A DNA stretch of 64,000 bases from Deltaproteobacteria bacterium (GTDB lineage Bacteria > JAGRBM01 > JAHCIT01). Positions 2,298 through 6,711 of this stretch are shown here, piece after piece. Every line of letters begins with the position of its first letter. Positions within the stretch are counted from its first letter, which is position 1. The notes beneath the pieces are model-generated. The model was not told where the DNA came from and searched no databases. It was given only the letters and a program-made list of their open reading frames with translations. The stretch covers positions 124,001-188,000 of the forward strand of contig JAHCIT010000003.1 in assembly GCA_026129095.1 (NCBI GenBank), given 5' to 3'. The translations under genes and the position numbers were made by a program.

Positions 2298-3053
2298 GTG
2301 CATATCGATATCGTCACCCTGTTCCCGGAAACCTTTGAAGGTTGGCGCAATCATTCCATTATCAGCCGGGCCCAGTCGAAGGGCGCTGTGGAACTCCATG
2401 TTCACAACCTGCGCGACCACGCGGAGAACAAGCATAACCGGGTGGATGAAGCGCCATTCGGCGGTGGTGGCGGAATGCTGATCCAGGCACCCCCCGTGCT
2501 CAGGCAGATCCGGGCGCTCAACCTTCCGGCGGGAACCCCGGTAATTGCCGCGTCGGCATCCGGTGAGCCGTGGAGCGACAGCCTTGCGAGGAAACATGCG
2601 GGCTGTCCCCGTCTGGTGATCCTCTGTGGCCACTACGAAGGATTTGACCAGCGTGCGCTCGATTTGACGGGGGCAAGGGAAGTATCGGTTGGAGATTTCG
2701 TGATGACCGGGGGCGAGCTTCCTGCAATGTGCATTAGCGACTCGATTATCCGGCTCCTGCCGGGGGTACTCGGCAACGAGATTTCGGCGGCCACTGAAAG
2801 TCATGCTTCGGGTACCAGCGGGGGGCTCCTGGAAGGCCCGCACTACACACGCCCCGAAGTGGTCGAGGGGGTATCGGTTCCGGAACTGCTGATGTCGGGG
2901 GATCATGCCCGTATCGCCCGGTTCCGGCGGGAAGAAAGCCTGAAACGGACCTGGGAGCGGCGGCCGGAACTCATCCGCCGGGCAGAGCAGGAAGGGCGTC
3001 TGACGGCGGCCGATATGGGCTATCTGAAGGCGCTGGGTTACGGGGGCGACTGA
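2298..3053 (+). CDS. trmD: tRNA (guanine37-N1)-methyltransferase
   Basis: A 251-residue SPOUT methyltransferase starting at GTG (HIDIVTLFPETFEG). Visible signatures are the AdoMet trefoil-knot segments LCGHYEGFDQR and SVGDFVMTGGELP, followed by YTRPEVVEG and a C-terminal helical domain. TrmD methylates G37 next to the anticodon in tRNAs reading CNN codons and prevents +1 frameshifting. Length is normal. It sits between rimM and rplS in the conserved operon order. Confidence 0.96.
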   Translation: MHIDIVTLFPETFEGWRNHSIISRAQSKGAVELHVHNLRDHAENKHNRVDEAPFGGGGGMLIQAPPVLRQIRALNLPAGTPVIAASASGEPWSDSLARKHAGCPRLVILCGHYEGFDQRALDLTGAREVSVGDFVMTGGELPAMCISDSIIRLLPGVLGNEISAATESHASGTSGGLLEGPHYTRPEVVEGVSVPELLMSGDHARIARFRREESLKRTWERRPELIRRAEQEGRLTAADMGYLKALGYGGD

Positions 3054-3066
3054 GACTGCCCTGGAT

Positions 3067-3093
3067 GCGGCTAAGCCGCCGGAATCTTTCCGG
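3067..3093 (+). other. Two adjacent hairpins in the trmD-rplS gap
   Basis: Right after trmD, GCGGCT and AGCCGC (3067-3079) form a very tight inverted repeat, and CCGGAA with TTCCGG (3079-3093, loop of 3) forms a second. No U-run follows, so these do not look like an intrinsic terminator. They lie in the 142-base leader of rplS and may be a processing or attenuation element; the role is inference. Confidence 0.4.
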
Positions 3094-3195
3094 TTTCATC
3101 TGCCTTGACTTGCCCCTCGTTTCCGTGGCAAGGGAGGCCCCTCTTGAGGCTCCGCCCGGCATGTGCCGAAGGAGCTCCTGACCGGGAATGAAGCC

Positions 3196-3693
3196 ATGTC
3201 GATGCATCCGATCATCCAGAAGATAGAAGCCGAACAGATCAAGGGCGACCGCCTGAAGAAGGCCGGCAAGCGCGGCCGGGTGAAGGAAAACTTCCGCCCA
3301 GGTGCCACTGTCCGGGTCCACACCCGTATTCGTGAAGGCGACAAGGAACGTATCCAGATATTCGAAGGTGTGGTGATCGCCTGTAAAGGCCGGGGCCTGC
3401 TGCGGGCGTTCAAGGTCCGGAAGGTGTCTTTCGGCGTGGGTGTGGAACGTACGTTCCCCCTGCATTCGCCATGGATCGAAAAGATTGAAGTGAAGCAGGA
3501 GGGCGAAGTCCGCCGGGGCAAGCTCTACTACCTGCGTGACCTTTCCGGCCGTGCAGCCAAGCTCCGGGAAAAGCGCGGCACGGAGAACTTCCGCAAGCTG
3601 CTCCTGCCGCAGCAGGCTCCTGAAGAGGCGGCGGCCGGTAATCCGCCCCCGGAAGCTCCTGCCGAACCGGCTGGCGAAGCTCCGAAGGCCTAA
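3196..3693 (+). CDS. rplS: 50S ribosomal protein L19
   Basis: The protein shows the L19 hallmarks [51 protein letters not shown] and [18 protein letters not shown]. At 165 residues it exceeds the usual 115-130 because of a Pro/Ala/Glu-rich C-terminal tail from about residue 138. L19 lies at the 30S-50S interface. ATG 3196 is chosen because family members begin a few residues before IIQKIE; a GTG at 3163 is in frame but unlikely. It is the last gene of the operon, followed by a terminator. Confidence 0.95.
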
Positions 3694-3715
3694 CCACTCA
3701 TCTCTTGCCCGTTGG

Positions 3716-3754
3716 CCCTGTCTCCTCATCATGGAGACAGGGAAGGCTGTTTTT
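3716..3754 (+). terminator. Intrinsic terminator after rplS
   Basis: A perfect 10-bp stem (CCCTGTCTCC at 3716-3725 with GGAGACAGGG at 3733-3742) closes a 7-base loop. A run of five T follows at 3750-3754, slightly displaced from the stem. It lies 22 bases after the rplS stop and separates the ribosomal operon from the ATPase gene. Confidence 0.8.
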
Positions 3755-3821
3755 GCTGCTTCTCCGGTTTGGTCTTGTCCAGTGGAGCGAATAGACTCCG
3801 GGGACGAGGAAGTAGCCAACC

Positions 3822-5663
3822 GTGCAGATCATCGAACTGGTGGTTCAGGGAGTCCGGCGGTTCAAGGACTCGTTCAAGATACAACTGAAGCCTGGTCTTA
3901 TTATGGCTGTGGGCGGAAGTGAGTCCGGCAAGACGACGCTGGTTGACATCATCGAGGCGTCGCTGTTCCCGGCCGACTCGAAGCATTCTTCCGAACTGGT
4001 ATCGTGGGAAACTCCGGAGCTCTCACGCGGAGCGATTGTTTTCAGGGCGGGACCGGAAGACGGCACTTATCGTATTGTCAGGGATTTCGTGAAAAATGCG
4101 TCATCACTTTCAAAACTGGATCCGGAGACGAAAAAGTTCATGCCGATCGCCGGGGATTCCGCGCAAATCGATACGGTTCTGAAAGAAATGGGGCTCCCCT
4201 CTCTCGAAATCTATCATGCGCTTTGCGTCATTCACCGGCTGGATAGCGAAGCTCCCGGGGCAGCGGGATTTGGCTCGGCGGTGGATGAACTGAGCCAGCT
4301 TTCGCCAGAAGTCCGCGAACAGAAGATCAGGGAAATAAAGGAAGCACTGGAAGGAACCGGCAAGCTCGACCAGCTCCAGTACGAGCTGGACGGTTACGAG
4401 AGCGAAAAGTTTGACCTGATGAGCACGCTGAAAAGGGCGGACGATCTCGAAGCGGAAGCCAAAAAGGCCGAGGAGGTGCTGGAGCAGCCCCAGAACGAGA
4501 AACTGGGGTCCATTTCGGCCGAACAGGAAGAGCGGATCCGCAACCACGATGAGAAATCGGGAGAACGCAAGCGAGAACTGGATCATCTCGAAAAGCAGAT
4601 GCTGAGCTTTTACCAGGAAGCGGACGCCGCCCGCGCAAAACAGGTGGCGCCCTATCAGCATCCGATCGTCATGGCTGGAATAGGAGTAATCCTGCTGGGG
4701 TTCATCCTGTGGATCGGGATGAAAATGTCAGGCGATCAGTATGCCCCGCATGCATCGAAATCGTTTCTGCTGGTGATGGTGGGCGCAGCCCTCGCCGGAT
4801 TCGGTTATCTTCAGTGGATGAAACTGATGCAGGACCTGAAAGAGGTTATTTCCAAACCGGAGAAAACCGAACAGCAGCGCAATCAGCTCATGCGCAAGTA
4901 CGACGTGGAATCAGCGGACGTCATTTCCGTGCTCAGGCGAACCGAATCGGACACTCCACGCGAGCTTCTGGAGCGGCTCGTCGCATTCAAGAAGCTGAAG
5001 GCCACGGCGGACAAGGCCCGTGCGGCAGCCAACAAGGCCCGTGAAGCTCCGGAAGTGGCCGAGGCGGCCGCCCGGCTCAAGGAAGTCACTGCGAAGATCA
5101 AGGAAACCCAGATGGCGATCAAGAAGGCGGGAGCCGCGGCCGCCATTGATCCAGCCGAACTGCGCCGCCAGCTCGACAGGCTGGAGAATGCCGGCGGAAA
5201 CAAGGGCGTTGCCGGAGTGGGGGCCGGGAAACTGATCGCGGCGGCGGCTAGCTATCTGGATGAAAGCCCGGATGGCCTGGCTGCGGCCATTATGCCCCGC
5301 GCCTCTGCCCACCTGCAGACGATTACGGAGAACCGCTATTCGCTCGTTTCGCTATCCTCCGATGGTTCGGCAGGCCTCAGGCATCTTCCTTCCTCGCGGG
5401 AGCGGCTCATTGGCGAACTGGGCAGCAGCGTGCTGACTGCTTTCCAGTTCGCCGTTCATGGGGCATTGATGGAATTCATTGCCGACCGGAAGGAAAAACT
5501 GCCGCTGCTGGTTGATTGCGGCACCGGGACCCTCGATGACCGCTGGCTGGCGGGTCTGTTCCGGGTACTCAAGGCCGTAGGTGGCCGCTCGCAGGTCATC
5601 CTCACCACGTCCCGTGCGCAGGTTGCCAGCATGGCGGATCTGGCCATAAAACTGCCGGCATAG
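3822..5663 (+). CDS. Membrane-spanning SMC/Rad50-like ATPase
   Basis: A 613-residue protein with an N-terminal ABC-type ATPase half (Walker A GGSESGKTT at 31-39), a charged coiled-coil stretch (about 165-275), two strongly hydrophobic segments (about 283-302 and 314-334), a second Ala/Glu/Lys-rich coiled coil (about 340-460) and a C-terminal ATPase half ending in LPLLVDCGTGTLDD near 560. The split-head architecture matches RecF/SMC/Rad50/YhaN proteins, but two transmembrane helices sit between the coiled-coil arms, tethering it to the inner membrane. The Walker B segment reads VDCGTG where these families usually have DE or DD, so catalysis may be altered. GTG start with GAGGAAG upstream. No nuclease partner is adjacent; rnhB follows. 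Function unknown. Confidence 0.75.
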   Translation: MQIIELVVQGVRRFKDSFKIQLKPGLIMAVGGSESGKTTLVDIIEASLFPADSKHSSELVSWETPELSRGAIVFRAGPEDGTYRIVRDFVKNASSLSKLDPETKKFMPIAGDSAQIDTVLKEMGLPSLEIYHALCVIHRLDSEAPGAAGFGSAVDELSQLSPEVREQKIREIKEALEGTGKLDQLQYELDGYESEKFDLMSTLKRADDLEAEAKKAEEVLEQPQNEKLGSISAEQEERIRNHDEKSGERKRELDHLEKQMLSFYQEADAARAKQVAPYQHPIVMAGIGVILLGFILWIGMKMSGDQYAPHASKSFLLVMVGAALAGFGYLQWMKLMQDLKEVISKPEKTEQQRNQLMRKYDVESADVISVLRRTESDTPRELLERLVAFKKLKATADKARAAANKAREAPEVAEAAARLKEVTAKIKETQMAIKKAGAAAAIDPAELRRQLDRLENAGGNKGVAGVGAGKLIAAAASYLDESPDGLAAAIMPRASAHLQTITENRYSLVSLSSDGSAGLRHLPSSRERLIGELGSSVLTAFQFAVHGALMEFIADRKEKLPLLVDCGTGTLDDRWLAGLFRVLKAVGGRSQVILTTSRAQVASMADLAIKLPA

Positions 5664-5689: not shown

Positions 5690-6307
5690 ATGCCGGTAGA
5701 CCCCGACTTCGACCGCCGGTTCCGGTCCGGGATCCCGGTGACCGCATTTCTGGCCGGTGTTGATGAGGCCGGGCGTGGCCCGCTTGCAGGCCCGGTTGTG
5801 GCAGCGGCGGTGATTCTCGATCCGGATGCTTCCCCGATTGCCGGTGTTGATGACTCCAAGGCACTCAGGCACGAGGTACGGCTGGAACTGGCGGCGGTTA
5901 TCCGTGAGCGGGCACTTTCCTTTGCGGTCTGCGAGGCGAGCGTCGAGGAGATCGACCGGCACAACATTCTCCGGGCATCACTGCTGGCCATGCGGCGGGC
6001 CATCGAAGCGCTGGACCGGCCGGTGGGACTGGCGCTTATTGACGGAAACCGGCTCACCGACGCACTGGTGCGCCAGCAGTATGTGATAAAGGGCGATTCC
6101 AGGAGTCCGTCTATTGCGTCGGCCAGTATCCTGGCCAAGGTTCACCGGGATCTTCTCATGTCGGATCTGGCTGAACGTTATCCGGAATACGGATTCGACC
6201 GGCACAAGGGCTATCCGACTGCTTCTCACCGGGAAGCGATCCGGAAAAATGGCCCTTGTCCCATTCACCGGCGCACGTTCCGGGGGGTCAAGGAGTTCCT
6301 GCCATGA
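5690..6307 (+). CDS. rnhB: Ribonuclease HII
   Basis: A 205-residue protein with the RNase HII motif GVDEAGRGPLAGPV (D25, E26) and the later segments SPSIASASILAKVHRD and HKGYPT. It removes RNA from RNA-DNA hybrids, mainly misincorporated ribonucleotides. The stop overlaps the start of the yraN-like gene (ATGA), a sign of translational coupling; rnhB-yraN pairing is common in bacteria. Confidence 0.96.
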   Translation: MPVDPDFDRRFRSGIPVTAFLAGVDEAGRGPLAGPVVAAAVILDPDASPIAGVDDSKALRHEVRLELAAVIRERALSFAVCEASVEEIDRHNILRASLLAMRRAIEALDRPVGLALIDGNRLTDALVRQQYVIKGDSRSPSIASASILAKVHRDLLMSDLAERYPEYGFDRHKGYPTASHREAIRKNGPCPIHRRTFRGVKEFLP

Positions 6308-6711
6308 GCCCGAAACCTTCTTCGTCAGCAGGGAAACCCGCGCCCGGTTCCGGACCCCGTAAAAACCTCGGTGCACGGGGTGAAGACGCAGCCGCCATCT
6401 GGCTTGCGCGCAAGGGCTGGCAGATCGTTGAGCGGAACTGGAACTGCGCCCTTGGCGAACTGGACATCATCGCCCGCGACGGTGAAACGTATGTTTTCGT
6501 GGAGGTCCGCACGAAATCAGGCCGTGAATTCGGAAGCGGAATCGAATCGGTCACGCCGGGCAAGGTGAAAAAGCTGATTCGTCTGGCCGAGGCCTATGTC
6601 CAGTCGGGCGGCATCAGGGATGTGCCGCTGCGGATCGATGTGATTGGCGTGGATGAGGCTCCCGACGGGACCTATGCGTTCGAGCATGTGCCGAACGTAA
6701 CAGGATATTAG
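6304..6711 (+). CDS. YraN family protein (UPF0102)
   Basis: A 135-residue protein with the endonuclease-like fold signature of UPF0102: RNWNCALGELDIIARDG (GELD at 51-54) followed by YVFVEVRTKS. This D-(E/V)-x-K arrangement resembles Holliday junction resolvases, but enzymatic activity is not established for the family. The ATG at 6304 overlaps the rnhB stop codon. An N-terminal Ser/Pro/Lys-rich stretch of about 20 residues precedes the domain. It converges with the dehydrogenase gene, 6 bases away. Confidence 0.92.
   Translation: MSPKPSSSAGKPAPGSGPRKNLGARGEDAAAIWLARKGWQIVERNWNCALGELDIIARDGETYVFVEVRTKSGREFGSGIESVTPGKVKKLIRLAEAYVQSGGIRDVPLRIDVIGVDEAPDGTYAFEHVPNVTGY

Follow-up and report, generated by a model that had tools for sequence, protein, structure and literature searches.

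The accepted picture of SMC and Rad50 proteins is one of DNA machines driven by ATP, with a hinge or a hook at the apex. Among proteins with the same split head, SbcE (YhaN) of B. subtilis has been reported in double-strand break repair (Krishnamurthy et al. 2010, as cited in PMC4205851 and PMC3896406). The window analysed here, a 64,000-nucleotide stretch of DNA, encodes at positions 3822–5663 of its forward strand, on which the features of X and the adjoining hairpin, trmD, rplS, rnhB and yraN-like genes also lie, a 613-residue, putatively membrane-anchored Rad50/SMC-like protein, hereafter X. Its open reading frame opens with a GTG start codon, has the codon-position G+C pattern of trmD, rplS and rnhB, and begins at a residue common to the aligned homologues; the frame is real on the strength of these last two properties.

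X is built around the split head of the Rad50/SMC type that the initial annotation had proposed, with a Walker A lobe at the N terminus (residues 1 to about 135), a Walker B lobe at the C terminus and long helical arms between them. Pfam AAA_23 matches over its cut-off (E = 3.2e-8) and nothing more specific does so; AAA_27 scores 10.9 bits, below its curated cut-off of 22, and matches 5 of 10 relatives at E ≤ 0.01, and NCBIfam has no model for X. Compared with solved structures, the family profile finds Rad50 heads first (E = 1.2e-22) and SMC next. At a pLDDT of 41, a single-sequence AlphaFold model of the window protein was too poor to use. Starting from the N terminus, Walker A is intact, reading GGSESGKTT at residues 31–39 (GGSESGKT, residues 31–38, positions 3912–3935). 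The two arms, whose boundaries were drawn from composition and are approximate, comprise residues about 171–276 (4332–4649), charged and with a net charge of −11, and residues about 341–470 (4842–5231), with a net charge of +7. In the C-terminal lobe, the alignment places a degenerate signature region, ELGSSVLTAFQFAVHGA, at residues 532–548 (5415–5465), followed by Walker B, LLVDCGTGTLD, at residues 562–572 (5505–5537). The catalytic set is incomplete: the signature reads ELGSSV instead of an LSGGQ-type motif, and D565 of Walker B is followed by C566 at a site where most relatives carry Asp or Glu, the altered acidic residue that had already been noticed. The switch histidine was not found, TSR occupying its expected site.

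At the apex, in place of a hinge, lie the two hydrophobic segments that the initial annotation had pointed to, at residues 282–300 (4665–4721, mean Kyte–Doolittle hydropathy 2.54) and 315–333 (4764–4820, 1.66). No SMC hinge model matches between the arms, where a 64-residue hydrophobic apex is found, and residues 271–345 contain no cysteine at all, so that a CxxC zinc hook is absent from the apex. The region from 277 to 340 is nearly uncharged (3% acidic, 6% basic), and nothing similar to this hydrophobic pair is seen at the hinge of the canonical SMC that the window genome also encodes. Among 5,000 shuffles of X, 41 reach a hydropathy of 2.54 and 232 give two segments of at least 1.6 that are 15–60 residues apart, so the pair in the window protein alone is only suggestive; both segments are kept in all 74 aligned homologues, which makes a chance origin negligible. 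Hydropathy and conservation thus suggest that the segments are transmembrane, in the inner membrane. They might instead be packed inside a small hinge or dimer domain of a soluble X, forming its buried core, which would agree with a window pair that is not extreme among shuffles and with a second segment that is weak (1.05–1.3) in some Myxococcaceae copies, its range over the 74 members being 1.05–2.15. We regard a soluble X as very unlikely, however, as the first segment scores 1.58–2.74 in all 74 members and has the length of a membrane helix in a nearly uncharged region, and YhaN-type proteins carry hydrophobic segments at the matching position, whereas canonical SMC hinges have no such pair.

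Searched against a sample of 41 genomes, the window X by itself picked up relatives in 4 genomes besides its own: three of these (G001, G015 and G021) encode X, and the protein of the fourth (G010) is YhaN-like and encoded beside purL. A search of 386 genomes with profile A1 matched 15 of them strongly, the window genome included, and every X locus that it matched follows rplS except that of G041, where the call is blurred by an overlapping frame. Scans of genome contigs and viral contigs confirmed no relatives. After further homologues had been fetched, the X alignment held 74 members. By the search tool's own grouping, the family spans eight phylum-level groups, with X present in 2/2 genomes of the window's own phylum, in 65/87 of Myxococcota, and in 9/9, 3/3, 2/2, 2/5, 1/1 and 1/1 genomes of the other six. 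The name Myxococcota for the second of these groups, the phylum of genome G029, is deduced from the 16–18 Mxa_TIGR02265 copies in family f30.

We rejected the idea that the apex hairpin is unique to X; nor does it fall outside the known families as the initial annotation had supposed. Two mid-protein hydrophobic segments are present in 8/8 sampled outgroup proteins, seven of YhaN type and one large SMC-like protein (L057), all chosen as A1 profile matches, though mostly through head segments. In a profile–profile alignment with hhalign, X and the YhaN-like family match over their whole length, and the two hairpins coincide (100%, E = 3.9e-47). The novelty therefore lies in the X family itself, the hairpin layout being already present in YhaN-like ATPases: the 74 homologues form one clade against the YhaN-type outgroups (SH-aLRT 100), no family model names X, and no paper on the family was found in the open-licence literature.

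Two findings go beyond the initial annotation, namely the repeated loss of Walker A and the fixed position of X after rplS. Of the 74 members, 25 retain the Walker A motif GK[ST] and 49 have lost it, with losses of the ATP site concentrated in Myxococcota, where it is missing from every sampled X of Myxococcaceae (f30) and of the Anaeromyxobacter-like family f163. It is also missing from a member of another phylum (L051), and in L055 its Lys is replaced by Arg. The tree requires Walker A to have changed state at least 4 times, with starred branches forcing 2 of the changes; it was built quickly and several of its branches are long, which leaves the exact number uncertain. Where Walker A is present, 16 members have Asp as the second Walker B residue, 4 have Glu, 3 have Asn and 2 have Cys, the window protein among the latter. 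The Walker-less copies of Myxococcaceae show pairwise dN/dS values (Nei–Gojobori) of 0.04–0.30 over the whole protein and of 0.025–0.195 in the C-terminal head lobe, where purifying selection is strongest. Such low values in copies without Walker A argue that the head is kept for a purpose other than canonical P-loop nucleotide binding.

This pattern bears on the possibility that X is a working double-strand break repair ATPase of the YhaN/SbcE type, moved into the rplS locus and served by a nuclease encoded elsewhere. The end-to-end homology to YhaN-like proteins fits such a role, as do the repair report for SbcE and the intact Walker A of the window protein; most of the YhaN-like proteins are encoded beside a metallophosphatase nuclease, five YhaN-type genes adjoining one of the SbcD/YhaO type. 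Yet no nuclease gene adjoins any X locus examined, the window's included, the X clade is separate from the YhaN-type proteins, and loss of Walker A from 49/74 members is hard to fit with the conserved ATP cycle of a Mre11/Rad50-type machine. A repair ATPase of this kind is, in our judgement, unlikely, while remaining the alternative to our reading that we take most seriously.

The locus order around X is rpsP–khpA–rimM–trmD–rplS–X, headed by ffh in many members. In the window, position and homology across loci identify trmD (2298–3053), a conserved neighbour, and rplS (3163–3693), encoding ribosomal protein L19, as the constant upstream neighbour. Homologous loci with at least 700 nucleotides of upstream sequence numbered 78, or 72 distinct loci once six duplicate retrievals of a genome region were set aside; in 66 of these 72, rplS lies directly upstream of X on the same strand. 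The exceptions are L052, with the overlapping frame already mentioned, L116 and L122, where yraN is still downstream, and L123, L124 and L126, where neither neighbour was detected. In these last three, from the Myxococcota family f279, X lies away from rplS with no rnhB or yraN nearby, and they may be relocated copies or paralogues. The survey of neighbours that the initial annotation had called for thus yields a recurring neighbour, rplS, on the upstream side.

Downstream of X, open reading frames and locus comparison identify rnhB, the RNase HII gene (5690–6307), which begins 27 nucleotides past X, and a yraN-like gene (6256–6711), a kind of gene frequently met downstream of X. The adjacency of X and RNase HII that had first been noted is therefore correct for the window but does not hold for the family as a recurring partnership: of the 71 rows whose flanking sequence sufficed (repeats included), 54 have rnhB and/or yraN downstream of X, and most loci lack rnhB as an immediate neighbour. 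Nor is its adjacency associated with Walker A state, in a comparison with two independent pairs on starred branches. Since the adjacency varies and has no link to Walker A state, RNase HII is unlikely to be a dedicated partner of X, and we rejected such a pair. A broader proposal has X working with RNase HII and ribosomes that contain RplS, either to link translation or transcription with the membrane or to remove RNA:DNA hybrids at that site. It would draw on the fixed ffh–rpsP–khpA–rimM–trmD–rplS position and on the frequent presence of rnhB and/or yraN after X. It is quite unlikely, given that rnhB adjoins X in a minority of loci and does not track the state of the ATPase and that an operon neighbourhood alone is no proof of interaction.

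Between rplS and X, a perfect 10-bp hairpin, CCCTGTCTCC/GGAGACAGGG, is followed by TTTTT (3716–3754; z = −3.17 for 3694–3821). This structure could serve as a terminator or attenuator, in which case X–rnhB–yraN may be transcribed in part separately from the genes before it. Because 7 nucleotides separate the stem from the T run, the consensus scan did not list the hairpin.

Several peculiarities of individual loci were also observed. The window's KH-domain (KhpA-like) protein (1251–1772) has 173 residues, with a long acidic, Asp/Glu-rich C-terminal tail, as opposed to about 76–95 residues in most related loci. In the G015 locus (L010), TrmD matches fall in two separate open reading frames (2758–3216 and 3343–3534), possibly because of a sequencing error or a frameshift, although the gene is normally essential. 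In four loci (L048, L049, L050 and L052), trmD and rplS are separated by a conserved gene whose product, about 190 residues long and with an N terminus like MSNRIYIGLLHYPVYNKTGE, may be of the SAM-dependent RNA methyltransferase type. In five loci of one phylum (L011, L094, L095, L097 and L098), a large DUF4388-like receiver protein is encoded directly after X, followed in L011 by a CheA/CheW cluster.

An anti-phage defence ATPase resembling Lamassu LmuB, Gabija or Septu was also considered, as the PADLOC models for LmuB, GajA and PtuA match the X family (best 2.2e-17). The best matches, tabulated for one member, cover only the N-terminal ATP-binding stretch, as they would in any SMC-like head, and X sits in a fixed housekeeping position across eight phyla instead of lying in variable islands, and has no effector partner. 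On these grounds a defence function is extremely improbable and was rejected.

The reading we prefer, with confidence just short of even, is that X is an inner-membrane-anchored Rad50-like rod whose head is mainly a binding or dimerising module, making the protein a tether or scaffold as opposed to a motor. The N- and C-terminal lobes would fold back into an ABC-type head, the two arms would run antiparallel, and the two-helix hairpin that replaces the hinge or zinc hook would sit in the inner membrane; with about 106–130 residues per arm, the head would project roughly 15–20 nm into the cytoplasm, where heads may pair as in Rad50. The intact Walker A suggests that the window protein probably still binds ATP, while the Walker B cysteine, the degenerate signature motif and the lack of a switch histidine make it a likely poor hydrolase, with turnover that would be weak here and absent in many relatives. 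Lineages that have Walker A, including the window's, may still be using an ATP cycle. Because the nucleotide site is dispensable across the family and the anchor, arms and C-terminal lobe are kept, the core job of X is most likely to hold something near the membrane, not to run a motor cycle. Ancestry makes DNA or the nucleoid our first guess for the cargo; ribosomes or polysomes come second, from a gene position that, with ffh beginning the locus in many members, hints at ribosomes or nascent-chain traffic. The adjacency to rplS may also be a relic of an ancient operon order that says nothing about function. A larger claim is more speculative, and we consider it somewhat unlikely: that X stands for an unnamed but widespread group of SMC-like proteins anchored in the membrane, which gave up their ATPase several times over and persist as a conserved passive tether joining the inner membrane to the nucleoid or the translation machinery. 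A deep family with a membrane anchor where the hinge would be, a constant place behind rplS in eight phyla and an ATP site that can be lost under continuing purifying selection would show that the SMC/Rad50 architecture does not need its engine to function, and would offer a candidate link from the membrane to DNA or ribosomes. The occurrence of Walker-less X in Myxococcaceae, which include genetically tractable species, makes the question testable.

Compared with known systems, X shares with Lamassu LmuB and other SMC-like defence ATPases a weak to moderate match over the N-terminal ATP-binding stretch, but it occupies a conserved housekeeping locus, has no effector and has a decaying ATP site. 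With SMC, MukB and RecN it shares the head superfamily (a weak Pfam SMC_N match), and differs in having no hinge domain, a length of about 600–740 residues and no ScpA/B neighbours. Rad50/SbcC has the same split ABC head and is the top solved-structure match of the family profile, whereas X has short arms, an apex membrane hairpin in place of a zinc hook and no SbcD/Mre11 next door. In YhaN/SbcE (AAA_27, COG4717-type), split head, arms and hairpin follow in equal order and the homology runs end to end; X, in contrast, is a separate clade that follows rplS without a YhaO/SbcD-type nuclease neighbour, that has dispensed with Walker A in most of its members (49/74), and whose copy in the window carries a cysteine at the second acid of Walker B.
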